From: Gluconacetobacter azotocaptans
Lineage (GTDB): Bacteria > Pseudomonadota > Alphaproteobacteria > Acetobacterales > Acetobacteraceae
Direction of reading: 5' to 3'
Assembly: GCF_014174355.1 (NCBI RefSeq)
Contig: NZ_JABEQF010000003.1
Location: forward strand, 124,001 to 188,000
Length of the DNA: 64,000 nt
Part shown: positions 1,470 through 60,747 of the stretch, piece by piece
How the letters are laid out: the number at the start of each line of letters is the position of its first letter
How positions within the stretch are numbered: position 1 is the first letter of the stretch
Translations under genes and position numbers: made by a program
The notes under the pieces: generated by a model
Told to the model about the DNA's origin: nothing
The model's input: the letters and a program-made list of their open reading frames with translations, nothing else
Database searches by the model: none

Positions 1470-3017
1470 ATGAAATCGGTTTCCGGAGCCGCCCGACATC
1501 TTCCGACAAGACGGTCCGTCGGGCTCGGCCTCCTGGCCGCCCCTGCCTTGTGCGGGCCCTTGCGCCGTGCTTTTGCCTCTGAACACACCAGCTTTCCGTT
1601 TTCGGTGGCGTCCGGAGATCCCTCTGCATCGGGCGTCGTACTCTGGACACGCCTGGCAAGATCGGCGTTCGACCCCGAACCCATCTCCCACAATCCCATC
1701 CAGGTAGAATGGGTCATCGCCAAAGACTGGGATCTCGTGCACGTCGTCCAGTCAGGACTGGCTCTGGCGCGACCGGCCCTGGGTTTCAGCGTTCATGTCC
1801 ATGTCCAGGGATTGCAGGCGGCGCAGACCTATCATTATGGATTTTATCTCGGGGGAGAACGCAGTCCGGTGGGGCGCACCAAGACTCTTGCGTCCCCGGA
1901 TCAAAATCCGGCCTCGGCGCAATTTTCCGTGGTGAGCTGCCAGAATTGGGAAAACGGCTATTTCGATGCCTACCGGGGTATCGTGGAAGACGACCCTGAT
2001 TTCGTCTTGCACCTCGGGGATTACATCTATGATGTGACGCGGGGAGGCGGCGTTCGCCGGCACGAGATGTCCCGCCTCCCGATGACGTTGGCGGAGTACA
2101 GGGCGCGGCATGCGCTTTATCGGACTGATCCAGCTCTGATTGCCGCGCATGAATCCCTGCCGTTCGTTTTGCTGCCCGACAATCACGACGCGTTGGAACA
2201 GGATTCACGGGACCCTGCCCAGCTCGCGCGTCGTGCGGCGGCTTATCAGGCGTGGTACGAATTCCTGCCTGTGCGCCATCCGGCGCAGCCCCCGTCGATG
2301 CGGATTTATCGCGGAATGGATCTCGGCCGCCTTGTCCGGCTCAATCTGCTCGACACGCGGCAGTTCCGTGGCGACGAGACGATCTGCAAAGATCATTCGG
2401 ACCCGCGTTTCGGCTTCGGGGTTTATGAACAGGCCTGCCCGGCCGCCGCCGATGCGCGCCGCACAATGCTCGGTTGGTCTCAGGAGACCTGGCTGACCGG
2501 CAGACTTCGCCATGTGCCGGCACGCTGGAATGTTATCGGCTCGACAGTCATGATGTCGCCGATCAACATGCGCCACGACAATGACGTTTATCGCTACCTG
2601 GGCAGTTGGGACGGCTATGACGCCAATCGCCGACGGATCCTGGATACACTCCAGCGATACCGGACACCGAACCCCGTCGTGCTGTCCGGCGATCTTCATT
2701 CCACCCTGATATCACGGGTTGTGCGTCGCGCCGGCGATGATCCGCGGTCGGGGGTGATGCCGGAGTTTCTGGGCACCTCAATCAGTTCCCTATGGCCGGA
2801 GCCACTCGCTGCACCCATCAGAAATGCACTGCCGGACAATCCGCATGTCCAGCATTATGATTCTCTGCACCGGGGGTATCTGAGATGCACCTTCACGCCC
2901 ACGCGTATGTGGGTGGAAACGCGGCTGATTTCGCATACCGACAAACCGGGCGGAAAGGTGCGGACGGCGGACAGGTTTGTCGTCGAAAACGGCTCTCCAG
3001 AGATTCTGGTTGCCTGA
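1470..3017 (+). CDS. PhoD-like alkaline phosphatase/phosphodiesterase, Tat-exported
   Basis: A 515-residue metallophosphoesterase of the PhoD family. The N-terminus has a twin-arginine signal (TRRSVGLGLLAAPAL near residues 13-27, cleavage likely after AFA near 36), an Ig-like PhoD N-domain (SVASGDPSASGVVLWTRLA) and then the catalytic domain. Metal-ligand motifs are HLGDYIYD (about 181), PDNHDALEQD (about 236) and LSGDLHS (about 406). The second motif reads NHD where most PhoD proteins have DDHE, closer to the canonical metallophosphoesterase GNH(D/E). Expected to release phosphate from esters or diesters in the periplasm. ATG 1470 was chosen because the Tat motif follows directly; a GTG at 1401 is an in-frame alternative. 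No Pho box was seen upstream. A second phoD lies at 35753-37348. Confidence 0.85.
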   Translation: MKSVSGAARHLPTRRSVGLGLLAAPALCGPLRRAFASEHTSFPFSVASGDPSASGVVLWTRLARSAFDPEPISHNPIQVEWVIAKDWDLVHVVQSGLALARPALGFSVHVHVQGLQAAQTYHYGFYLGGERSPVGRTKTLASPDQNPASAQFSVVSCQNWENGYFDAYRGIVEDDPDFVLHLGDYIYDVTRGGGVRRHEMSRLPMTLAEYRARHALYRTDPALIAAHESLPFVLLPDNHDALEQDSRDPAQLARRAAAYQAWYEFLPVRHPAQPPSMRIYRGMDLGRLVRLNLLDTRQFRGDETICKDHSDPRFGFGVYEQACPAAADARRTMLGWSQETWLTGRLRHVPARWNVIGSTVMMSPINMRHDNDVYRYLGSWDGYDANRRRILDTLQRYRTPNPVVLSGDLHSTLISRVVRRAGDDPRSGVMPEFLGTSISSLWPEPLAAPIRNALPDNPHVQHYDSLHRGYLRCTFTPTRMWVETRLISHTDKPGGKVRTADRFVVENGSPEILVA

Positions 3018-35752: not shown

Positions 35753-37348
35753 TCAGGCTTTTTGCAGGCCCGGTCGTCCACGTTCCACGGCAAAGCTTGC
35801 ATAGGTCGAAAGCTGGCCGTCATGCTCCATGACCTTGTCCACCACTTTCAGGTCCGCGTGCCAGACGTCGCGCCCGACATCGCACAGCACGTAACCGCGC
35901 TTGTCCGTGGTCGCCTTGAGCTGCGGATTTTCGCGGCGGACGGACCGGCTGAACGCATCGTCGTCGCCCAGCCCGTCTGAACCGGACGAAATGGAAGTCG
36001 CCAGGAACTCGACCGAGACGGGTTTGGGATAGTCGGGGTCGTAGACCAGATCGCCTGCGAAATGACGGTGGGCGTCGCCAGTCACGTTCACGACATTGCC
36101 GGGGCAATGCTGATCGATGAACTGCAGCAGGCGCTTGCGCGCGTAGAGATAGCCGGACCACTGGTCCATGCTGTAGATCAGCTCGGAATGTGCCGACTTC
36201 CGATGGGCCAGATCCATCATCATGACCTGGTGCGCCAGCATGTTCCACCGCGTGTCGGACCGGCCCAGCCCGTCGAACAGCCATTGTTCCTGCGGCGCAC
36301 CCATCATGGTGCGCTCGGGCGACCAGACATCGGGCCCCTGCGGCGCGTCATGGTCGCCATAGACCTGGTCGCTGCGATACTGCCGGGTATCCAGAACGAA
36401 AATATTCATCAGGTCGCCGTACCGGAAATCACGGTACATCTGCATGTGGCTGCCATCGGGCAGGGAACGGATACGCAGCGGCATATGCTCGTAATAAGCC
36501 TGCATGGCGGACGTGCGGCGTTGACGAAAAACCTCGGGCGGCGTGCCGTCCTGATCAGTGTCGCCCGCCCAGTTGTTATCGACCTCATGATCGTCGGAAC
36601 TGACCAGCCAGGGCGCAGCGGCATGGGCGGCCTGCAGGTCCGGGTCCTGCTTGTACAGGGCATAGCGGCGGCGATATTCGTCCAGCGAGTAACATTCCGG
36701 GCCCACATGGCGACGGAGCGCCTTGAACGGGCGGCCGTTCATCTTGTGGATGCCCTCCCCGCTGTCTTTGCCTTCGTAAATATAGTCACCGTAATGGAAG
36801 ACGAAGTCGATCGGCTCGTTCGCGATGGCGCGCCAGGCGGTATAATAGCCCTGTTCGTAATGCTGGCAGCCGGCCGCGGCGAAACGCAAACGCTGCACCG
36901 GTGCGCCCGGCAGCGGAAGCGTGCGGCCGCGGCCGATGGCGCTTTCATAACCGGCAATGCGGAAGCGGTACCAGTACGGCCGGTCGGGTTGCAGTCCTTC
37001 GACCTCGACATGCACGCAATGCGCCAGTTCCGGATGCGCAATGGCCTGCCCGTTGCGGACAATGCGGGAGAATTTTTCGTCGTCTCCCACCTCCCAATCG
37101 ACCAGAACCGGGCGCAGCGTCATGCCGCCGCCCTCTTGCAGGGGCGACGGCGCCAGCCGCGTCCACAGCACGAATCCGTCGGGTGACGGATCGCCCGACG
37201 CTATGCCCAACTGAAAGGGCGAGACGTCAAAACGAGGTTTTCCATCGAGATTTCGCGGCGTCGCCGCCTGAAGATGTTTCAGCCGCGTGGACAGCAGCAG
37301 GCCCGCGCCCATTCCCGTCAGCAACGTCCTGCGCCTTAGAAACACCAT
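35753..37348 (-). CDS. phoD: Alkaline phosphatase D (PhoD), Tat-exported
   Basis: 531 residues. Twin-arginine signal LRRRTLLTGMGAGLLL (about 4-19), PhoD N-domain (LGIASGDPSPDGFVLWTRLA) and catalytic domain with FHYGDYIYEG, SSDDHEVDNNWAGD and TGDAHRHFAGDL, all canonical Fe/Ca ligand motifs. It hydrolyses phosphate mono- and diesters in the periplasm. ATG 37348 has GAGG eight bases upstream. It shares a 186-base divergent promoter region, with a Pho box, with an ECF sigma gene. Compared with the other phosphatase in the window (1470-3017), this one has the standard metal motif. Confidence 0.93.
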   Translation of the reverse strand: MVFLRRRTLLTGMGAGLLLSTRLKHLQAATPRNLDGKPRFDVSPFQLGIASGDPSPDGFVLWTRLAPSPLQEGGGMTLRPVLVDWEVGDDEKFSRIVRNGQAIAHPELAHCVHVEVEGLQPDRPYWYRFRIAGYESAIGRGRTLPLPGAPVQRLRFAAAGCQHYEQGYYTAWRAIANEPIDFVFHYGDYIYEGKDSGEGIHKMNGRPFKALRRHVGPECYSLDEYRRRYALYKQDPDLQAAHAAAPWLVSSDDHEVDNNWAGDTDQDGTPPEVFRQRRTSAMQAYYEHMPLRIRSLPDGSHMQMYRDFRYGDLMNIFVLDTRQYRSDQVYGDHDAPQGPDVWSPERTMMGAPQEQWLFDGLGRSDTRWNMLAHQVMMMDLAHRKSAHSELIYSMDQWSGYLYARKRLLQFIDQHCPGNVVNVTGDAHRHFAGDLVYDPDYPKPVSVEFLATSISSGSDGLGDDDAFSRSVRRENPQLKATTDKRGYVLCDVGRDVWHADLKVVDKVMEHDGQLSTYASFAVERGRPGLQKA

Positions 37349-37440
37349 CCGGAAGTCCTCCCTCGAAGGATGAGGCGGCTATCCGCCCTGCATACCGTCA
37401 AGACAAACAAGAAGCCCGCATGCCCACACCGCCCCCTCTC

Positions 37441-37469
37441 TTTTCATAAAATTGTCACGGAACTGTCCC
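37441..37469. promoter_or_regulatory. Candidate Pho box (PhoB site) with a third half-site
   Basis: TTTTCATAAAATTGTCAC (37441-37458) matches 15 of 18 positions of the PhoB consensus CTGTCATAAAACTGTCAC, and CTGTCCC follows 11 bases after the second half-site (37463-37469). The 11-bp spacing of three half-sites is characteristic. It lies between phoD and the sigma/FecR/receptor genes. Confidence 0.7.
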
Positions 37470-37534
37470 GGCAAATTCCGTAATGGACAGGCATCATTTT
37501 CCAGACATCGTTCTGAACCGGGATTGCAAGACCC

Positions 37535-38023
37535 TTGGCGGAAGATTGGTTGCCCTGTCAGACGGAATGGCTGCGCCTCTATCGGCGGGTTCGTGCCCTC
37601 ACGCGCCGGGACGACGCCGAGGATCACCTGCAGGCCGCTCTTCTGAACTATTTCGAACGGCCCGAGGGCACCGTTACGAGTCCCGAAGCCTATATCACCC
37701 GAAGCGCGCTCAATCTCTCCCTCAATGCCCGCAAACGGGAACAGAACGGCTGCGTCGCGCCGGCGGACCGGAATGAGATGCTTGTGGAGGTACGGGATCC
37801 GGCCCCGTCACAGGAAGAAGCCTATGCCGCGACCCAGCTCATGGCGCGCTTTCAGGAAGGCTGCGCGCAGCTTCCGGAAAAGACGCGGCAGGCCTTTCTG
37901 CTGAACCGCGTCGAGAAAATGAAATATCGCGACATCGCCGCCACGCTGGGTATCAGCGAAAGCAGCGTTGAAAAACATATCGCCAAGGCGCTGGTCTTTC
38001 TTTCATCCTGGGTCAATCCTTGA
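37535..38023 (+). CDS. ECF sigma factor, FecI-like
   Basis: 162 residues with sigma region 2 (RVRALTRRDDAEDHLQAALL) and region 4 (LPEKTRQAFLLNRVEKMKYR, then DIAATLGISESSVEKHI), typical of FecI-type sigma factors. The only usable start in frame is TTG 37535, without a strong ribosome site, which suggests low expression. Its stop overlaps the FecR start (TTGA), so sigma and antisigma are coupled. It is expected to transcribe the downstream receptor gene when FecR signals. It is linked by a shared promoter region to phoD and a Pho box. Confidence 0.87.
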   Translation: MAEDWLPCQTEWLRLYRRVRALTRRDDAEDHLQAALLNYFERPEGTVTSPEAYITRSALNLSLNARKREQNGCVAPADRNEMLVEVRDPAPSQEEAYAATQLMARFQEGCAQLPEKTRQAFLLNRVEKMKYRDIAATLGISESSVEKHIAKALVFLSSWVNP

Positions 38024-38943
38024 AATATCACCCGAACACCTCCAACGTTCAGAAACGTGCCGCCGAGTGGATCGCGCGCCTGCATGCCGACGACTGCACG
38101 GATCGCGACAGGGACCATTTTCTGCGCTGGCTTCATAGCGACCGCCGTCACGCCACCGTCTTCGAACATCTGACCGACCTGTGGGAGATGGGTGGTGGGG
38201 TCGTCCTGCCGCACGCCGCCGCCGTGCGCCCCAAGGAACGCGCACACCGCTTCACCCGGCGGCATGCGCTGGCCTGCCTGGGCGCCGGTGGGCTGCTTCT
38301 GACGCCCCTGTCACGGTACGCGCATGCGAAACGTGTGCTGGAAACCGGCGCCGGAGGGCTGCGCAGCGTCACCCTGGCCGGGCAGACACGATGCCAGCTC
38401 GACACCAATACCCGCCTGGTGCTGTCGGATGGCCGGCCCGCCGTTCTGGAGAAAGGGCAGGTTGTCCTGTCCACGGAAGTGGTCGCCCACATCTCGGCGC
38501 GGGACGTCGATCTGCATCTTCCCGTTCATACAACGGCAGATATCCGCATCGACCCGGGCTGCACCGACGTGACGGCCATTCGAGGCCGGGTCTTTCTGCA
38601 CGACCCGCGCCTTCCCCGGGACGGAACCTGGATCAACCCCGGCCAACGCCTGCGGATCTTCCGTAACGGAAGGATGGATGTGGACACGCCCGACCTGGAT
38701 GAACTGCTGTCCTGGCGAAGCGGGCGCCTGATCTTTCGCAACCGTTCCCTTCGCGACGTCATCGCGGAAATCAACCGCTACACGCCGCGGGAAATCGTCC
38801 TCGCCGCGCCGGCCCTGGCGGACCGGCGGCTGAGCGGCGTCTATTACGTTGCGCAGGGCGACAGCTTTCTTCAGATGCTGCCCCGCCTTCTGCCCGTCAG
38901 GCTGGTGCCCGTGACAGAAGGTTTCAAAATCGTTCCTGTATGA
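38020..38943 (+). CDS. FecR-family antisigma / signal-transducing membrane protein
   Basis: 307 residues. N-terminal cytoplasmic antisigma part (AAEWIARLHADDCTDRDRDH, then FLRWLHSDRRHATVFEHL), one membrane segment near 85-100 (HALACLGAGGLLLTPLSRY), a periplasmic FecR domain (LAGQTRCQLDTNTRLVLSDG) and a C-terminal STN-interacting region (RDVIAEINRYTPREIVL). TTG start within the sigma gene stop. It receives the signal from the STN domain of the TonB receptor and releases the sigma factor. Confidence 0.9.
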   Translation: MKYHPNTSNVQKRAAEWIARLHADDCTDRDRDHFLRWLHSDRRHATVFEHLTDLWEMGGGVVLPHAAAVRPKERAHRFTRRHALACLGAGGLLLTPLSRYAHAKRVLETGAGGLRSVTLAGQTRCQLDTNTRLVLSDGRPAVLEKGQVVLSTEVVAHISARDVDLHLPVHTTADIRIDPGCTDVTAIRGRVFLHDPRLPRDGTWINPGQRLRIFRNGRMDVDTPDLDELLSWRSGRLIFRNRSLRDVIAEINRYTPREIVLAAPALADRRLSGVYYVAQGDSFLQMLPRLLPVRLVPVTEGFKIVPV

Positions 38944-39042
38944 CGTTTTCATGAAACCGCGCCTCCATGACGGAGGATTCCCGGTTTTCATCTGTCTTCC
39001 TGCCGAGACCGCCACCGCACGCGACAGCAGGACACACGATTC

Positions 39043-41730
39043 ATGACAGCCCACCCCCGGTCCATCCTTCAATCCGTCCTTCTTCTGACGGCAGGGGCCT
39101 CCATTCTTACGCCGCCCGCCCTGGGCGCGGCGTCCGGCACCACCGCCGTGCATATTGCCCGGCAGCCGCTGGATCAGGCGCTGGAAGCACTGGGACGGCA
39201 AACCGGACAGAGCATCGTCTTCCCGCCCGAACTGGTTGCCCATCACCAGGCCCCGGCGGTCAACGGCACCATGACGCCGGGCGAAGCCGCCCACCGGCTG
39301 CTGTCCGGCAGCGGCATGACGGTGGAACCCATGCCCGGCGGCGGCCTGGTCGTGCACAAGGCAAGCGCCGCCCCTTTCAAGCGCACGGCCCGCAAGGTGC
39401 GCGCAAGCCAGGCTGAGAGCATCGAGCAGGTGGTTGCGACCGGTCATCACACCCGGTCGGTCATGAGCATCAGCGGCGACCAGATACAGGAGATGATGCC
39501 CGGCCAGAACCCCATGCAGGCGCTCGACCTGCTGCCCGGCGTGACCTTCACCAACGTCGATCCGTGGGGCAACAACGAGCAGAATTCCAGCATCTTCGTG
39601 CATGGATTTTCCAATACCCAACTGGGTTACACGCTGGATGGCATTCCGCTGGGTGCTGGTGCGTACGGAAATTACAATGGTCTTTCCCCGCAGCGCGCGG
39701 CCATCAGCGAAGATATCGGGCGTACCTCGCTGTCATCCGGCGCCGGCGCGCTGGGAACGGCCTCGACCAGCAACCTGGGCGGGACGATCGAATTCACCAC
39801 GCGCGATCCCAAGCGGAAGGCGGGGGCCACGATCCGTCAGACCTTTGGCGAGTACTCCACGTTCCGGACATTCGCCCGTGTCGATACCGGCCAGTTCGGC
39901 AACGGCAATGCGGCCTATTTCGCGTTTGCCCGGCAGGACGCCCGTCCGTGGAACCTGGGCCCGGCCAACCGCCAGGGCGGTTACCAGGTCAATGGCAAGT
40001 TCGTCCACAGGGATGAAAACACGACCGTCACCGCATATTTCGACTGGCAGAACAAGGCCGAGCCGAACACGCAGGGCCTGACCGCGCCCACCGATCTTTA
40101 TGCCCGTGGCGCCTTCTATCCCGACCTCGATGCGGCGATGGCGAATTATCCGTCCGAGTCCTCGAAGGCGAAAGCGCCGGGCGCGCCGAACAATCTGTAT
40201 TACTTTTCCGCCGCCCAGCGGACCGACTACCTGACCTACGTGAATATTTCCCACAAGTTCGCGCCGAACCTGACGTGGGACAACCAACTGTATTTTCATT
40301 ACGATGACGGCGCAGGGGTGGTCGCCACCTCGGTCCGCACGAATGCCATCCTGACCATTCTGGGCTCGTACCTCGATCCGACGGGCACGAAATACATCAA
40401 GAACGGTCAGTTCACCTACACCGTCGCCGGAATCGACCCGAAGGTCTGGGACGCGACCGGCGGAACCGGCTATGCCGTCCGCACCACGGAATATGACGAT
40501 TACCGTGGCGGCCTGATGAGCACCCTGCATTACCATATCGGCCACCATAATATCGAAATCGGCGGCTGGTATGAACGCAACAACAACAGCCAGGGCCGCT
40601 ACTGGTACCCGCTGACCACCACGAATACGCTGACGCCGTACGAAACGCCAAAAAACCCGCTGTTCACGCAATGGAACAACGTGTTCTTCACCAATACGTT
40701 CGTCACCCACCTTCAGGATACCTGGCGGGTCACGCCCCATCTGACACTGACGGCGGGGTTCAAGTCGGAACTGGTCTATACCAACGGCACGCTGCCGGTC
40801 GCGGCATTGCCGCAATCCCTTGCCGCCGCGGTGACGGGCGCCAAGACGCTGGTGGACACAAGTACCCATACTGTTCCGGGTGGCACGATCCCGTCCGTCG
40901 AGCCGTTCCTTCCCGCGTTCGGCGCGTTGTGGAGCTTCACGCCGCATGAACAGCTCTTCGCCAACATCCAGGAGAATATGAACTCCTTTGCCCAGACCGG
41001 GTACGGTTCGACCTCTCCGTGGGCCGTCACCACCCAGGATGCGTTCGAGGAATTCAAGCGGACAGGCAAGCCGGAGACATCCTGGACCTACGAGACCGGC
41101 ATCCGTACCAGCCATCCGCTCCGGGCCGGCCCGCTGACGGGCATCAGCGGACAGCTCGAATATTACCATGTGGACTTCTACAACCGTCTGGGCGCCATCA
41201 AGCCGCCCAACCAGGGCATTTCCGGCGTTGGCGGCACCGTCGCCAACCTGGGCAACGTCTCGACGAACGGCATGGACCTGTCCTTCACGCTCCGCTTCGG
41301 TCCGCATTTCTCCGTCTACGACACGGTCTCGTATATCAGCAGCATCTACGGCAACGACTTCATGGACGGCGCCACGCTGTATGCGACCAAGGGCAAGAAG
41401 GTGCCTGCCATTCCCGTCTGGTCCGACAAGTTTGTCATCAGCTACAACCAGGGTGGTTTCAATGCCCAGTTGAATGGCAGCTATATGGGTGTGCGCCCCG
41501 GCACGCTGACCAACAGCGTCATGGTGCCGCCGCGCCTGCTGCTGGGCGTCAGCTCCGGCTACACGTTCCAGCATATTCCGCACATGGACAGCCTGAAACT
41601 GCAGTTCAACATCAGCAACCTGACGAATGCCCGCTCGTGGTCGTCCCTCACCCCCGGTGATGCCGATACCTATGTGGGGTATCCCACCCCGCCGCGCATG
41701 TTCTTCGGAACGATCGGCGCGTCTTTCTGA
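39043..41730 (+). CDS. TonB-dependent transducer (STN-domain outer-membrane receptor)
   Basis: 895 residues. Signal peptide (about 1-29), STN domain (VHIARQPLDQALEALGRQTG to VVHKA, about 36-108), a linker, plug (MQALDLLPGVTFTNVDPWG onward) and a 22-strand barrel ending in Phe (GTIGASF). The presence of STN, sigma and FecR makes it a signalling receptor of the FecA type. Such receptors normally import ferric chelates, but the Pho box and phoD next door point to a phosphorylated substrate. About 100 bases separate it from FecR and probably hold the sigma-dependent promoter. Confidence 0.92.
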   Translation: MTAHPRSILQSVLLLTAGASILTPPALGAASGTTAVHIARQPLDQALEALGRQTGQSIVFPPELVAHHQAPAVNGTMTPGEAAHRLLSGSGMTVEPMPGGGLVVHKASAAPFKRTARKVRASQAESIEQVVATGHHTRSVMSISGDQIQEMMPGQNPMQALDLLPGVTFTNVDPWGNNEQNSSIFVHGFSNTQLGYTLDGIPLGAGAYGNYNGLSPQRAAISEDIGRTSLSSGAGALGTASTSNLGGTIEFTTRDPKRKAGATIRQTFGEYSTFRTFARVDTGQFGNGNAAYFAFARQDARPWNLGPANRQGGYQVNGKFVHRDENTTVTAYFDWQNKAEPNTQGLTAPTDLYARGAFYPDLDAAMANYPSESSKAKAPGAPNNLYYFSAAQRTDYLTYVNISHKFAPNLTWDNQLYFHYDDGAGVVATSVRTNAILTILGSYLDPTGTKYIKNGQFTYTVAGIDPKVWDATGGTGYAVRTTEYDDYRGGLMSTLHYHIGHHNIEIGGWYERNNNSQGRYWYPLTTTNTLTPYETPKNPLFTQWNNVFFTNTFVTHLQDTWRVTPHLTLTAGFKSELVYTNGTLPVAALPQSLAAAVTGAKTLVDTSTHTVPGGTIPSVEPFLPAFGALWSFTPHEQLFANIQENMNSFAQTGYGSTSPWAVTTQDAFEEFKRTGKPETSWTYETGIRTSHPLRAGPLTGISGQLEYYHVDFYNRLGAIKPPNQGISGVGGTVANLGNVSTNGMDLSFTLRFGPHFSVYDTVSYISSIYGNDFMDGATLYATKGKKVPAIPVWSDKFVISYNQGGFNAQLNGSYMGVRPGTLTNSVMVPPRLLLGVSSGYTFQHIPHMDSLKLQFNISNLTNARSWSSLTPGDADTYVGYPTPPRMFFGTIGASF

Positions 41731-55108: not shown

Positions 55109-56032
55109 ATGATCGACATCATCGTTCTCGGCGCGGCGGCGGGCGGCGGCTTTCCGCAATGGAATTCCAACGCCATCGGCTGCAGGCGCGCCAGGGCCGG
55201 GGATCCGGCGGCGCCGGCCCGCACCCAGGCTTCAATTGCCATCAGCGGCGACGGCCGGCACTGGTTCGTCGTCAATGCCTCGCCCGACCTGCGCACGCAG
55301 ATCGGCCAGACCCAGGCCCTGCATCCGCAGGAAGGCCTGCGCTCCACCCCCATCGCCGGAGTGATCCTGACCGGGGGCGAGGTCGACACCGTCACCGGCC
55401 TGCTGACCCTGCGCGAACGCCAGCCCTTTACCCTGCTGGCGACGCGGCCGGTGCTGGACCTGCTGGATGCCAACCCCATCTTCGAAGCCCTGGACCGCGC
55501 GGTCGTCGCCCGCGCCACCCTGCCGCTGGATACCCCCTGCACGCTGGCGCTGCCCGACGGCGCCCCGGCCGGCCTGACCGTCACCGCGTTTGCGGTGCCC
55601 GGCAAGGTGCCGCTCTACACCGAAAGCGGGCCGGACCCTGCGGCGATCGTCGAGAATGGCGAGACGATCGGGCTGGTGATTTCGGACGGGACCCGGCAGG
55701 CGTTCTTCATCCCCGGCTGCGCGCGCATGACCGACGCCCTGCGCGCGCGCCTGCGCGGTGCGGAACTGGTGTTCTTCGACGGCACGCTGTGGCGGGATGA
55801 CGAGATGATCCGCGCCGGGGTCGGGCAGAAGACCGGCCAGCGGATGGGGCATATGTCCGTCGCGGGCGACGGCGGCGTCATCGCCGCGTTCGCGGACCTG
55901 GACGTGCGGCGCAAAGTGCTGATCCACATCAATAATTCGAACCCCGTCTTGCTGGCGGACAGCCCCGAGCACCAGGCGGCCCGCGATGCGGGATGGGATG
56001 TCGCCCATGACGGCATGAGACTTACGGCATAA
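55109..56032 (+). CDS. pqqB: PQQ biosynthesis protein PqqB
   Basis: 307 residues of the metallo-beta-lactamase-like fold, beginning MIDIIVLGAAAGGGFPQWNS, with GEVDTVTG as the region replacing the usual HxHxDH, and GHMSVAGDGG and HINNSNPVL later. Now regarded as a hydroxylase of the PqqA-derived Tyr; also proposed to help export. Weak ribosome site; expression depends on read-through of the pqqA terminator. Confidence 0.95.
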   Translation: MIDIIVLGAAAGGGFPQWNSNAIGCRRARAGDPAAPARTQASIAISGDGRHWFVVNASPDLRTQIGQTQALHPQEGLRSTPIAGVILTGGEVDTVTGLLTLRERQPFTLLATRPVLDLLDANPIFEALDRAVVARATLPLDTPCTLALPDGAPAGLTVTAFAVPGKVPLYTESGPDPAAIVENGETIGLVISDGTRQAFFIPGCARMTDALRARLRGAELVFFDGTLWRDDEMIRAGVGQKTGQRMGHMSVAGDGGVIAAFADLDVRRKVLIHINNSNPVLLADSPEHQAARDAGWDVAHDGMRLTA

Positions 56033-56042
56033 GGATCGCGGC

Positions 56043-56780
56043 ATGACCGGCCAGTCTGTTTCCCCCGATGCGCTGGAGGACGCCCTGCGCGCCATCGGCG
56101 CCGAGCGGTATCACAACCTGCATCCGTTCCATCGGGCGCTGCACGGCGGGACGTTGACCCGGCCGCAGGTGCAGGCCTGGGCGCTGAACCGCTATTACTA
56201 CCAGTGCCGGATCCCGGCGAAGGACGCGACGCTGCTGGCCCGCCTGCCGACGGCGGAACTGCGCCGGGAATGGCGGCGGCGGCTAGTCGACCATGACGGC
56301 GACGCCCCGGGCACCGGCGGCGTGGCACGCTGGCTGAAGCTGACGGACGGGCTGGGGCTGGACCGCGCCTATGTCGAATCACTGGACGGGCTGCTGCCGG
56401 CGACCCGCTTCGCCGTCGATGCCTATGTCGCGTTCGTGCGCGACCGATCGATCCTGGAAGCCATCGCCTCATCGCTGACCGAGCTGTTTTCCCCCACCAT
56501 CATCAGCGAGCGCGTGTCGGGCATGCTGCGGCACTATGACTTCGTGACGCCCGAGACGCTGGCCTATTTCCAGCCCCGGCTGACGCAGGCGCCGCGCGAT
56601 TCCGACTTCGCCCTGGCCTATGTCCGCGAACACGCCCGCACCGCCGGGCAGCAGACGGCCGTACTGAACGCCCTGAAATTCAAATGCGGCGTGCTGTGGG
56701 CGATGCTGGACGCGCTGGATTACGCCTATGTCGCGCCGGGACGCATCCCGCCCGGCGCCTTCCGGCCCGATCCCTCATGA
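56043..56780 (+). CDS. pqqC: Pyrroloquinoline-quinone synthase PqqC
   Basis: 245 residues. Helical-bundle oxidase with YHNLHPFHRALHGG at the start, SLTELFSPTIISERVSGML and TPETLAYFQPRLTQAPRDSD as active-site segments. It performs the final eight-electron oxidation and ring closure to PQQ. AAGGA precedes the ATG, and its stop overlaps the pqqD start (ATGA). Confidence 0.96.
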   Translation: MTGQSVSPDALEDALRAIGAERYHNLHPFHRALHGGTLTRPQVQAWALNRYYYQCRIPAKDATLLARLPTAELRREWRRRLVDHDGDAPGTGGVARWLKLTDGLGLDRAYVESLDGLLPATRFAVDAYVAFVRDRSILEAIASSLTELFSPTIISERVSGMLRHYDFVTPETLAYFQPRLTQAPRDSDFALAYVREHARTAGQQTAVLNALKFKCGVLWAMLDALDYAYVAPGRIPPGAFRPDPS

Positions 56781-57079
56781 CCGACCAGCCCGCCCCGGCG
56801 GGGCCCGACACGGCCGAGCAGGCGGTCGTGCGCTTCATGCGCGGCGTCCGCCTGCAGCATGACCGGGTGCGCGACCAGTGGGTGATCCAGGCGCCGGAAC
56901 GCGCCTTTGTTCCCGATCCGGTCGCGACCGAGATCCTGCGGCTGGTCGATGGACAGAGGCCGGTTTCCGCCATCATCGACGATCTGGCCGCCCGGTTCGA
57001 CGCGCCGCGCCCCGTCATTGCCCGCGACGTGCTTGCGCTGATTGCCGAGTTGACCGGCCGGCAGGTGCTGACCACATGA
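56777..57079 (+). CDS. pqqD: PqqA-binding chaperone PqqD
   Basis: 100 residues with the PqqD winged-helix-like pattern ([20 protein letters not shown], then [20 protein letters not shown]). It presents PqqA to the radical-SAM enzyme PqqE. Both ends overlap its neighbours by four bases, so pqqC-D-E are tightly coupled. Confidence 0.94.
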
Positions 57080-58182
57080 ACGCCATGCCTCCCGCCGCCC
57101 CCCCGCCGATGAGCCTGCTGGCCGAGCTGACTCATCGCTGTCCGCTGCAATGCCCGTACTGTTCCAACCCGCTGGCGCTGGACGGGCGGGAGAGCGAGCT
57201 TTCGACGGCCGAATGGCTTCGCGTCCTGGACCAGGCGGCCGAACTGGGCGTGCTGCAGGTGCATTTTTCGGGCGGCGAGCCCATGGCCCGCCCCGACCTG
57301 CCGGACCTGGTACGCTTTGCGGCCGGGCGCGGGCTATACACCAACCTGATCACGTCGGGCGTCCTGCTGACCGAGGCGAATTTCCGCGCGCTGGCCGATG
57401 CGGGGCTGGACCATGTCCAGCTTTCGTTCCAGGACGTCGATGCCGCACCGGCCGAAAAAATCGGCGGCATGACGGGCGCGCAGGTAAAGAAACTGGCTGC
57501 CGCGCGCATCGTCGTGGCGGACGGCATGCCGCTGACGCTGAATTTCGTCATCCATCGGGGCAATGTCGCGCGCATTCCCCGCATGCTGGACCTGGCACGC
57601 GACCTCGGCGCCCGGCGGGTGGAAATCGCGCATACGCAATATTACGGCTGGGGGCTGGTGAACCGGGCCGCCCTGATGCCCACCCGCGCCCAACTGGACG
57701 AGGCCACGCGCGCGGTCGAGGACGCGCGGGCCCGGCTGGGGCCGGCGCTGGCCATCGATTACGTCACCCCGGATTACTATGCCGACCAGCCCAAGCCCTG
57801 CATGGGCGGGTGGGGCCGGCGTTTCGTCAATGTCTCGCCCGCCGGGCGGGTCCTGCCCTGCCATGCCGCCGAAACGATCAAAAGTGTGGCCATTCCCGAC
57901 ATCCGCACCGCCAGCCTGGGCGAGATCTGGGCCGACGCGCCGCTGTTCCGCCTGTTCCGCGGCACGGACTGGATGCCCGAGCCCTGTCGCGGCTGCGCCC
58001 TGCGCGAGAAGGATTGGGGCGGCTGCCGCTGCCAGGCGCTGGCCCTGCTGGGCGATGCGGCGGCGACCGACCCGGTGTGCGCCAGGTCGCCGGCCCATGC
58101 GCGGATCACCGAAATCCTGGACAGCCTGCCGGACGCTCCGCCCCCGCTGGTCTATCGCCGTTTCGGTAATGCTCCGGCCTGA
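57076..58182 (+). CDS. pqqE: Radical SAM PqqA peptide cyclase PqqE
   Basis: 368 residues. The radical SAM motif C22-x3-C26-x2-C29 (CPLQCPYC) is followed by the SPASM auxiliary clusters: [37 protein letters not shown] and a late Cys. It forms the Glu-Tyr carbon bond in PqqA. Last gene of the operon. No pqqF or other processing peptidase is in the window, so a general protease such as a TldD-type enzyme may finish the peptide. Confidence 0.96.
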
Positions 58183-58301: not shown

Positions 58302-58420
58302 AGAGCGTGTTTGAAAATGTGGGCTGGCGAGCGAGAGCGGAGCGGCCTTATGGGCCGTGAGCATCGGAGCGCAAAAATGCGCGTCGGATCGCCGCCAGCG
58401 CGCTTTTTCAAACACGCTCT
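58302..58420. mobile_element. MITE-like element, 119 bp with perfect 16-bp terminal inverted repeats
   Basis: Left end AGAGCGTGTTTGAAAA (58302-58317) and right end TTTTCAAACACGCTCT (58405-58420) are exact inverted repeats. The 87-base interior has no coding potential. It is too short for a transposase, so it would have been moved by one elsewhere. No clear target duplication was found. The right end supplies the first base of the stop codon of the neighbouring receptor gene. Confidence 0.75.
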
Positions 58421-60747
58421 CAGAGGTTGCAGGACACCCGGCCGCCGATAAAGCGCGGCGCGCCGGGGATGTAGAGGTAGGTCGTCGTCGCCTGCCCGCC
58501 CGAAGTGTAATACTGCCGGTTCAGGATGTTCGAGGCATAGAGCGTGACCTGCCAGTGGTCCGAGGCGGGCCGGAGCGTCACATGCGCGCCCAGCAGGAAA
58601 TAGGGCGGAAGACGGTAGTACCCCGTCCCGCCCGGCGTGAGGGCCTGCGCACCGCGATAGAGCCAGTTGGGCCCGAATTCGACCGCGTAATCGGGGCTGA
58701 CGGCCTGGCGCCAGTCGAGCTGGCCGTTGAGCGTCAGTTTCGGCTGACCGTTATCCACGCCTGCGAAATTGTCGTTGATCGCCTTCCACACGCCATGCTG
58801 CGCGTAATAGGCGTTCGTCCGGGCGCGGTTCACGGTGGGGAAATCCTGGAACGTGCCGCGCTGCCAGCCGAGATTCTGCGTGACGAACAAATGACGGAAC
58901 GGATGGATGTCGATGGTCCCCTCGAAGCCCCAGCTTTCCGATTTCGGCACGTTGGTCAGCTGGCTCAACGGCCCGTAATCCGGGATCAGGATCGTGCCCA
59001 GAATCTGCTGGTTGTGGAAATCATTGTAGAAGGCGGCGGCATTGATCCGCAGCACGTTGGGAATGGGGTCGCTCTTCAGCCCCAGTTCATAGGTCAGCAC
59101 GGTCTCGGGCCCGAAGGGCGCGAGCTGCGCCTGGACCTGCGTATTGTTGGCCGTGAACCCGCCGGGTTTGAAGCCCTTGCTCATCTTGTAATACAGCAGG
59201 ACGTTCCGTGCCGCCTGCCACGATACGCCGACCTGGCCCGCGAACTGCGCCGCCGCCGTGCTCTCGCTGTGAAAATCCAGCGTGCGGCCGCCATAGACCT
59301 GCGACGTGAGCCCCGTAATCGCGCGGTCGTCGATCTCGTGCAGAAGCCCCGTGAAAAGCGTCACGTTCCCCGGCAGGCGGTAGCTGACATGGCCGAACTC
59401 GGACGTGGCCTCCTGATCCAGGCCGAAGCGCGAAACCTGCATGTAACCGCGTGCCGGCCGGTAGTCGGTGTAGTCGAAATAGAAGCTCTGGTTCATGCGC
59501 GAGCGCTGATAATACGCGCCGATCACCCATTGCAGCCTGTCCTCGGGATGCGTGTTCGACAGGCGCAGTTCCTGCGTGAAACTGTTGGCGGCGATCGTGC
59601 GGTAGGTGTCGGCCTGGGCGGCGGCGGTCGCGTCCTGGTCGGTGTACTCGCCCTCGCGCTCGGTCTCGAAGGCGCTGACCGAGGTCAGGGTCACGGGTCC
59701 GAAATCGTGGGCGACGTGAAGGTCGGCGCCCCAGAACCAGTTGTCCTCGCTGGGTTTCAGCCCGGCCTTCCGCCCGATCAGCTTCGTGAAGGCGTCCTTC
59801 GCCGACCATTCGGTCTGCGTCCAGCCGACGGTGGGGATCGGCGCGGAACCGATCAGGCGGGCGATCGGGATGGCACCCACCACCTGGCTCTCGTCGCGCA
59901 TCACATGGCCGGACAGCAGGATGGTGGTCCGGGAATCCGGCGTCCATTTCAGTTTGGCGCGCAATGCCCAGCTATTGGCGTCGCCCAGATGGGCGCCGTC
60001 CAGCGGATCGGTCTGCCAGCCGCCGCCCTGGCGTACCTGCCCGGCAAGACGAAAGCTCAGCCCCCGCGCGATCGGCCCCGAGACATAGGCCTCGCTACGG
60101 CTGCGGGCGTAGGACGCCATGTCCTGGCTGGCGCCGAAATGGAACATGTTGGTGGGGTCGCGGGTTTGCAGCTTCACCTCGCCGCCGGTGGTCGACTGGC
60201 CGTGCTCGGTGCCGACCGGGCCGGGGGTGACGGTCACGTCCGCCAGGTCGAACATCATCCCGGACGCCATGGTCGAATAGGCATAGGCCACATCGTCCAC
60301 GTAGGTCAGGACGGGGCCCATGTTATTCTGGGTGAAGTCGTTGAAGCCGAGGCCGCGCAGGTAGAAATTGGTCGAAGCCGTGCCGTTGATGCTCTGCACC
60401 GTCAGGTTCGGCGCCACATATTCCAGGCCGCGCAGGTCCACGACGCCCCGCTCGGTCAGCCGCTCGGCGGTCAGGCGTGTGGCGGAGTCCGCCAGGTGCT
60501 GGGCGCTGGCGTGGGTGAAGGCCCGGCGGATGCCGCTGACCTCGACCGTTTCCGGTGCAGAGGGATCCTGACGCGGCACGGGCTTCACGGCCGCCGTCTT
60601 CGCAGGCACGGCCAGAGCGGGCGCGCAGGCCAGCATCGTCACGCCGGCCAGGGAAACCCCCGCCGCCCTCAGCCGGCTTCCCCCGGTTCGGCGCATCTTC
60701 CTGTAACCGGTCATGCTGGGCCGCCGTACCTCCGTTCGAAATCGCAT
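58420..60747 (-). CDS. TonB-dependent receptor next to the pqq operon
   Basis: 775 residues. A signal region (AGVSLAGVTMLACAPALA), a TonB box-like ETVEVSGIR (about 67), plug domain (LRGLEYVAPNLTVQSINGTA, then NFYLRGLGFNDFTQNNMGPV) and a barrel; no STN domain, so transport only. The C-terminus reads RVSCNL and does not end in an aromatic residue; the stop lies exactly at the edge of the MITE-like element, so the original end may have been altered. The ligand is unknown. Convergence with pqqE invites comparison with PqqU, the TonB receptor that imports PQQ in E. coli. The start is uncertain (60747, 60714 or 60696). Confidence 0.85.
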   Translation of the reverse strand: MRFRTEVRRPSMTGYRKMRRTGGSRLRAAGVSLAGVTMLACAPALAVPAKTAAVKPVPRQDPSAPETVEVSGIRRAFTHASAQHLADSATRLTAERLTERGVVDLRGLEYVAPNLTVQSINGTASTNFYLRGLGFNDFTQNNMGPVLTYVDDVAYAYSTMASGMMFDLADVTVTPGPVGTEHGQSTTGGEVKLQTRDPTNMFHFGASQDMASYARSRSEAYVSGPIARGLSFRLAGQVRQGGGWQTDPLDGAHLGDANSWALRAKLKWTPDSRTTILLSGHVMRDESQVVGAIPIARLIGSAPIPTVGWTQTEWSAKDAFTKLIGRKAGLKPSEDNWFWGADLHVAHDFGPVTLTSVSAFETEREGEYTDQDATAAAQADTYRTIAANSFTQELRLSNTHPEDRLQWVIGAYYQRSRMNQSFYFDYTDYRPARGYMQVSRFGLDQEATSEFGHVSYRLPGNVTLFTGLLHEIDDRAITGLTSQVYGGRTLDFHSESTAAAQFAGQVGVSWQAARNVLLYYKMSKGFKPGGFTANNTQVQAQLAPFGPETVLTYELGLKSDPIPNVLRINAAAFYNDFHNQQILGTILIPDYGPLSQLTNVPKSESWGFEGTIDIHPFRHLFVTQNLGWQRGTFQDFPTVNRARTNAYYAQHGVWKAINDNFAGVDNGQPKLTLNGQLDWRQAVSPDYAVEFGPNWLYRGAQALTPGGTGYYRLPPYFLLGAHVTLRPASDHWQVTLYASNILNRQYYTSGGQATTTYLYIPGAPRFIGGRVSCNL

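Follow-up and report, generated by a model that had tools for sequence, protein, structure and literature searches.

A candidate phosphate-starvation-controlled signalling and uptake locus for phosphate esters beside phoD in Gluconacetobacter azotocaptans

Genes and promoter elements of the phoD-linked locus

The stretch of DNA analysed here (the window) covers 64 kb of contig C3 of the 4.13-Mb genome of Gluconacetobacter azotocaptans (G000) and contains a locus at which phoD lies divergent from genes for an extracytoplasmic function (ECF) sigma factor, a FecR-type sigma regulator and an STN-bearing TonB receptor. An earlier note on this DNA had described the arrangement together with a shared promoter region of 186 bases; domain searches and coordinates confirm the former, and the gap between the start codons of phoD and the sigma gene is indeed 186 bp. 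The features are listed below, with scores from a Pho-box matrix that is described further on.

35753-37348, minus strand: phoD; PF09423 (E 1e-110) and PF16655, the Pfam families PhoD and PhoD_N
37400-37426, minus strand: predicted ECF-like promoter of phoD; TGGGC (37426-37422), N16, TGTC (37405-37402), then TT
37441-37458, plus strand: Pho-like box TTTTCATAAAATTGTCAC, direct toward sigma and inverted toward phoD; matrix score 18.5
37463-37469, plus strand: third half-site CTGTCCC, at the 11-bp period
37535-38023, plus strand: FecI-like ECF sigma factor with a TTG start (or possibly a later one, at 37550); Sigma70_r4_2 E 3e-15
38020-38943, plus strand: FecR-type sigma regulator; DUF4880 E 4e-11, FecR domain E 6e-4, FecR equivalog E 3e-17
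38940-38957, minus strand: second Pho-like box, inverted, before the receptor and overlapping the fecR stop; matrix score 16.6
38972-38998, plus strand: predicted ECF-like promoter of the receptor; GGAGG, N16, TGTC, then TT, beginning exactly 14 bp past the Pho-like box
39043-41730, plus strand: STN-TonB receptor of 895 residues; STN E 5e-7 (residues 57-103), Plug E 6e-10 (residues 137-237)

The phoD product belongs to the PhoD class by its PhoD and PhoD_N domains and by its likeness along the whole enzyme to a solved PhoD, 2yeq, with which it aligns over residues 38-530 (E 4e-140, PDB sequence match); its NCBIfam equivalog score of 562 is under the cut-off of 1000. By eye, MVFLRRRTLLTGMGAG at its N-terminus is a signal of the twin-arginine type. 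On the other strand the FecI/FecR/FecA-type gene set is complete, with an ECF sigma factor, a DUF4880-FecR with a periplasmic part and an STN-bearing TonB receptor. The FecR protein consists of a DUF4880 N-terminus, a FecR domain, a membrane segment with an RR motif and a C-terminal signalling domain (the last two read by eye), and its FecR-domain and FecR-equivalog matches fall under the curated cut-offs. Reading by eye gives the receptor a signal peptide and, at residues 128-134, the TonB-box-like EQVVATG; its barrel region is full-length by alignment with relatives and transporters, with no Pfam barrel match at E 0.001. It lies three genes away from phoD and is flanked by FecR upstream and by a 72-residue reading frame and NnrU downstream, no SusD-like gene adjoining it in the window. 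A second PhoD-like reading frame in the same window (1587-3005) is 37% identical to this phoD.

In its gene kinds and its STN signalling domain the set resembles the ferric citrate system FecI/FecR/FecA, which has a ferric ligand and is under Fur control; it differs in its Pho-like boxes and phosphatase partners. This architecture favours an alternative reading, in which the locus encodes an ordinary ferric-chelate surface-signalling receptor that lies beside phoD by chance. The PDB sequence matches of the receptor point the same way, being weak (best E 6e-6) and confined to the STN and plug part of the iron receptors FemA, FpvA, HasR and FecA. A Fur-like match in the phoD-sigma gap does not rise above shuffles, the best being 10/19 against a 200-shuffle mean of 9.9, and the best before the receptor is 9/19, in both cases to an E. 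coli-type consensus from which the alphaproteobacterial box may diverge.

Conservation of the gene block and of its promoters

The box at 37441-37458 differs at 3 of 18 positions from the PhoB consensus CTGTCATAAAACTGTCAC, in agreement with the 15/18 given in the earlier note, and it is the sole match with at most three mismatches in the window, none of 100 shuffles having one. Throughout the genome there are seven matches at this threshold, each with exactly three mismatches, and none to a reversed control pattern. Three of the seven lie in the phoU/phoB/phoR/pstS/Porin_O_P cluster, one is the phoD locus, one precedes a TonB receptor that is followed by a phospholipase C and two have no evident link.

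A scan of genome contigs gave at least 80 loci, for each of which the gene caller was trained separately; all counts of orthologues and relatives from here on are among the matches listed. The STN part is covered by 14 of these loci (L074-L085, L117, L131), and phoD is divergent from the sigma, FecR and receptor genes in 11 of them, namely Gluconacetobacter johannae and ten Gluconobacter records. Among the matches listed, the nearest named record at this locus is G. johannae LMG 21312, with a receptor 97% identical and shared flanking genes. The Gluconobacter flanks differ from those of Gluconacetobacter, so that the phoD/sigma/FecR/receptor block itself is the conserved unit. All 11 phoD-linked orthologues have a Pho box at the equivalent place, and when the phoD-sigma gap of the window is aligned with those of these 11, the box is the best-conserved 18-column stretch, with 14 of 18 columns invariant across the 12 loci. 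The earlier note had named shared synteny and the box in orthologues as a check in advance, and the absence that it regarded as refuting is not what we found. The third half-site that it had reported at 11-bp spacing is present in the window, at 37463, but is found in few of the orthologues, and we dropped it as a conserved feature.

The window and genome scans, the shuffles and the conservation in orthologues rule out chance occurrence of the Pho box. By its consensus alone the predicted box is good, not strong, and the weight is carried by its conservation and by the matrix tests; the promoter carries, as far as sequence can tell, the PhoB box that marks the Pho regulon.

Further conserved elements point to a composite promoter. 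We defined a strict element as an inverted Pho-like box followed at exactly 14 bp by [TG]G[AG]G[GC], N16 and TGTC, and this stands before both phoD and the receptor in 12/12 loci (the window and the 11 listed orthologues) as well as before the receptor of Acetobacter garciniae. The ECF-like motif of phoD keeps an identical spacing from the Pho box in all 12, and the second Pho-like box is equivalently placed in these and in A. garciniae. Among 494 upstream regions of the own genome, which cover part of it in partly overlapping stretches, the strict element occurs only at the phoD locus, at its two sites. A relaxed form of the motif, applied to 956 distinct upstream regions from the genus, gives 12 hits at a gap of 14 and a single one at gaps of 8-13 and 15-20 together; all 12 precede receptors or phoD of sets linked to PhoD or to a histidine phosphatase, and in the own genome relaxing the motif brings in just one more promoter, that of the receptor in the histidine-phosphatase set. 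The locus thus appears to carry a composite PhoB/ECF-like promoter that resembles a joint PhoB/sigma promoter.

The remaining STN-bearing orthologues differ in their partners. In A. garciniae sigma, FecR and receptor are followed by phospholipase C; in A. orientalis (L085) sigma-like and DUF4880 genes lie on the opposite strand; and near the G. liquefaciens locus (L131) a phosphoesterase was not found. The strict composite element was not found in L131 or L066, the G. liquefaciens-type orthologues having a weaker box, 14 bp, TGAAA and a spacer one base longer. L131 is apparently on the same contig as L067 (G204:C17), where matches to the FecR of the orthologous set fall in two overlapping frames, as if frameshifted or mis-assembled; this FecR lies between sigma and receptor, and that of G203 (L066) is in one frame.

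In a tree of 43 rows from chosen loci, the 15 STN-bearing receptors, that of the window included, form one group (support 100/100) beside a glycerophosphodiesterase-linked group, and the PhoD label needs one change on the tree (branch support 77/95). Genome G174 has a 73% phoD next to a different STN receptor, divergent from sigma and FecR and with a matrix score of 12.0, which may be a second, independent pairing.

Phosphoesterase partners of related receptors

The own genome has 51 Plug matches, and all 51 neighbourhoods were compared by BLAST with reference phosphoesterases, three genes either side where the stretch reached. Eight receptors have a phosphoesterase within that distance: the phoD locus, C2:111405, C1:129061, C9:95092, C9:100249, C16:6224, C16:22120 and C6:160726. 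With two genes either side the number is 7/51, the phoD locus dropping out, and C6:156874 would be a ninth linked receptor, its third neighbour lying outside its own stretch (seen in L264). Exactly three DUF4880-FecR matches occur in this genome (phoD locus, C16:7886, C16:23666), and all three sets are phosphatase-linked (PhoD, His_Phos_2 and Metallophos, respectively), against 5 of the 48 other receptors (p 0.003). The second of them (L255, C16:1200-11700) combines sigma, FecR and an STN receptor with a histidine acid phosphatase, and before its receptor stands the 14-bp composite promoter in relaxed form.

The Pho-box matrix was built from 10 sites (9 distinct) with at most four mismatches to the PhoB consensus, taken from seven phoU/pst regions of the genus, with receptor loci excluded; those of L180 precede pstS and a Porin_O_P gene. 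It ranks the phoD-locus receptor operon third of the 51 own-genome receptors, and every one of its top four (C9:95092, C2:111405, the phoD locus and C16:6224) belongs to the eight with a phosphoesterase (p 0.0003). At the level of the genus there are 66 DUF4880 matches in 14 genomes; 65 were examined, one below the cut-off (G202) being left out, and three rows had no usable upstream region, leaving 26 phosphatase-linked FecR sets and 36 others. A score of at least 14 is reached in 19/26 of the former and 0/36 of the latter. Since the rows are related by descent, we recounted on distinct best sites, by hand, and obtained 10/15 against 0/30 (p 9e-7). G200:C10 was counted as linked on the strength of a neighbour of 808 residues; PF04185 is matched by the counterpart of this neighbour in G174:C1.

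Partners were also frequent among relatives that lack the STN domain. Relatives at E 1e-100 or better occur in 26 of 200 sampled genomes of the family, the own genome included, and 66 STN-less loci are listed, of which 62 remain once four that reach or closely approach the end of a contig (L126, L127, L134, L143) are set aside. A glycerophosphodiesterase lies directly downstream in 43 of the 62 (27 and 15 by two reference sequences, plus L116), and in L127 there is only a weak upstream match. The own-genome relative C1:129061 adjoins a calcineurin-type esterase and a PAP2 phosphatase. In six Asaia loci (L104-L107, L109, L118) the receptor is followed by a glycerophosphodiesterase and then by a HAD hydrolase, an order that would suit the complete use of glycerophosphodiesters. 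The receptor-glycerophosphodiesterase pair occurs in Betaproteobacteria as well, in Janthinobacterium and Rugamonas (L138, L140, L142, L144-L146, L151, L152), which suggests transfer between classes.

These neighbours bear on the iron-chelate reading, which we consider very unlikely. It is at odds with the retention of phoD and the box in 11 of the 14 listed orthologues, with the pairing of relatives with unrelated phosphoesterases and with the lack of high-scoring Pho-like boxes in all 36 FecR sets of the genus that have no phosphatase, in addition to the Fur scores in the gap. Another possibility is that the receptor carries a metal-bound phosphate compound, e.g. from phosphate minerals or phytate-like complexes, and serves both iron and phosphate supply, PhoD only recycling the ligand. 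An iron-type STN module under Pho-type control with phosphatase partners would fit this, as would the histidine acid phosphatases of the sister sets. The enzymes that accompany the close relatives are, however, the diesterases glycerophosphodiesterase and phospholipase C, chelators are not among the usual substrates of these enzymes, and we regard this possibility as highly improbable.

Proposed function and relation to known systems

We think it probable that the locus encodes a phosphate-starvation-controlled system for surface signalling and uptake of a phosphate ester. Since PhoD, glycerophosphodiesterase and phospholipase C all cleave diesters, a phosphodiester would be the likeliest ligand. 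The earlier note had proposed a phosphorylated compound, and the partner enzymes across the family (glycerophosphodiesterase, phospholipase C, metallophosphoesterase and histidine acid phosphatase) favour a role in the use of organic phosphate; likewise, its suggestion that cell-surface signalling is layered on PhoB control gains from the putative composite PhoB/ECF-like promoter. The sequences themselves show the gene content, the synteny, the conserved boxes with the composite promoter and the association of the family with phosphoesterases; PhoB binding, sigma binding, the ligand, transport and signalling are what we infer from these patterns. The orientation of the box, direct toward sigma and inverted toward phoD, suggests that PhoB activates sigma and FecR, and that PhoB and sigma together activate phoD and the receptor; a joint switching on of the receptor and PhoD is likely from the promoter sequences.

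In FecA-type signalling the STN domain releases sigma upon ligand. In the proposed mechanism low phosphate would activate PhoB, which would bind at 37441-37458 and turn on sigma and FecR. Once a phosphoester is bound to the receptor, the STN domain would signal to the periplasmic part of FecR and free sigma, and the freed sigma, with PhoB bound 14 bp upstream, would fire the promoters of phoD and the receptor. The receptor would then import the ester using TonB energy, exported PhoD would cleave it in the periplasm and the freed phosphate would enter through Pst.

Several observations weigh against this interpretation. The phoD-linked locus is present in only 2 of 14 genus genomes, and the G. 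liquefaciens-type (L131, L066, L067) and A. orientalis (L085) orthologues have no adjoining phosphoesterase; those of the G. liquefaciens type adjoin, on the opposite strand, a cluster with PepSY_TM and a second TonB receptor, a context usual for iron uptake and one that favours the iron-chelate alternative. Nineteen of the 62 listed STN-less relatives have no reference phosphoesterase within 4 kb, and Pfam searches of the neighbours of four of these (L097, L113, L132, L141) did not find a phosphoesterase; the reference phosphoesterases had themselves been chosen among neighbours of receptors, which means that enzymes of further families may have escaped the comparison. Where pst sites have GTCAT, most boxes at these loci have TTTCAT, and a score of at least 14 is found in only 7 of 18 sampled receptor-glycerophosphodiesterase promoters. 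The matrix sites come from three regions (L180, L185, L188) and none from the other four of the seven, so that the matrix rests on three genomes. Linkage labels of the FecR sets were assigned by hand, mostly from BLAST, and a phospholipase-like gene on the opposite strand near G204:C8:57161, a set that scores low, was not counted as linked. Fur was scored solely with the E. coli-type consensus. Finally, both forms of the ECF-like motif, strict and relaxed, were settled on once the alignments had been inspected: the first base was widened from T to T or G for the receptor promoter of the window, and the motif again for the histidine-phosphatase sets, both after seeing the sequences. The independent weight therefore lies in the fixed gap and in the restriction to these loci.

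The closest known systems are PUMA3 and the Pus loci. PUMA3 (VreA/VreI/VreR) of Pseudomonas aeruginosa is, in the part of the paper available, a PhoB-controlled operon of sigma, anti-sigma and receptor-like genes (PMC4971064). According to the same text, pho box, -35 and -10 are all needed at its pdtA promoter, and the sigma factor cannot initiate transcription without PhoB, which makes this promoter a precedent for joint activation by PhoB and sigma (PMC4971064). Common to both systems are a PhoB-controlled signalling operon and a pho box beside an ECF -35/-10 at the targets, at the phoD locus as a sequence pattern. The differences, again within the available text on PUMA3, are that VreA has no barrel and is thought to be non-transporting, whereas the phoD-locus receptor is full length, unlike a barrel-less receptor for signalling only; that PUMA3 drives virulence genes, whereas the partner here is PhoD; and that less than the 14 bp found here separates the pdtA pho box (-40 to -56) from the -35 region.

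PUMA3 raises the alternative that the phoD locus is mainly a regulator, its sigma factor being made and active in low phosphate without a receptor ligand and controlling further genes elsewhere. This is encouraged by the composite promoter, with its resemblance to a joint PhoB/sigma promoter, and by the finding, in the text available, that low phosphate switches on the PUMA3 regulon even when its receptor, VreA, is absent (PMC4971064). The phoD-locus receptor differs from VreA in possessing a plug, a barrel region of full length and a stretch that resembles a TonB box. Against this alternative stands also the promoter search, in which the strict composite element is confined to the phoD locus among the 494 own-genome upstream regions (part of the genome) and relaxing it brings in just the receptor promoter of the histidine-phosphatase set. 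We judge this alternative to be unlikely.

For the Pus loci of Flavobacterium johnsoniae, the available part of the study describes FecR-like and ECF sigma genes, induced by low phosphate, next to PusCD or TonB transporters (PMC8115612). They share with the phoD locus the combination of low-phosphate TonB-dependent transporters, FecR-like and sigma genes and co-located periplasmic phosphatases and diesterases (PMC8115612). The Pus transporters are of the Bacteroidetes SusC/SusD type, a pair that is lacking at the phoD locus, and an STN-FecA-type receptor with PhoD and a composite PhoB/ECF promoter is not described in that part of the text (PMC8115612). In sphingomonads, a proposed TonB-dependent uptake of organophosphates is likewise tied to an esterase, with the differences that the enzyme is a phosphotriesterase and that a sigma/FecR layer is not described in the portion of the paper available (PMC7142613). 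The statement in the earlier note that no sigma/FecR transducer with such a role had been described was thus too strong, given what the available texts say of PUMA3 (PMC4971064) and the Pus loci (PMC8115612). In the open-licence literature searched, we saw no description of an STN-FecA-type receptor with PhoD, a PhoD-linked FecR set, this locus or the composite promoter. What is apparently new at the phoD locus is the STN-FecA-type receptor with PhoD together with the composite promoter.

More broadly, acetic acid bacteria may hold a class of phosphoester loci that re-use iron-style surface signalling, each with an STN-TonB receptor, its own sigma/FecR pair and a matched periplasmic phosphoesterase, i.e. 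PhoD, a histidine acid phosphatase, a calcineurin-type esterase or a PI-PLC/phosphatase fusion with a GH92 mannosidase, and in which the receptor (and phoD) promoters of the PhoD and histidine-acid-phosphatase sets act as a PhoB-sigma AND gate of fixed 14-bp geometry; we see the chances for and against this generalisation as roughly balanced. Such a gate would turn a gene on only when phosphate is scarce and a particular ester is present. If true, FecI/FecR/FecA-type signalling would be a general ligand-gated switch that can be joined to PhoB, beyond iron, and the question of how Gram-negative bacteria select one source of organic phosphorus over another would have a direct answer that can be tested. 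Candidate outer-membrane phosphodiester importers would be named, with a caution against labelling such receptors as siderophore receptors. On a practical matter, the same phoD-linked locus is carried by Gluconobacter, in which disruption of phosphate signalling genes (pstS, phoB) is reported, in the part of the study available, to alter rare-earth bioleaching (PMC12041372).

Other loci seen along the way have a similar make-up. On contig C9 of the own genome (L183:4737-9489), a Pho-like box immediately precedes a TonB receptor and a phospholipase C of family PF04185, with additional receptor sequence after them; this is another candidate for a phosphoester set under PhoB control. At L332:1971-10779, L337:49-9112 and four similar loci (G200, G203, G204, G174), sigma/FecR/TonB-receptor sets are followed by a PI-PLC-C1/histidine phosphatase fusion (assigned by Pfam for L332 and L337 and by BLAST for the remaining four), and in L337 a GH92 alpha-mannosidase comes after the fusion. 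These fusion loci look like systems for inositol-phosphate glycolipids, e.g. glycosylphosphatidylinositol anchors or fungal glycosyl-inositol-phospho-ceramides. Within the window, a further TonB receptor (58420-60714, minus strand) lies near genes at 55109-58182 that by eye resemble pqqB-E.

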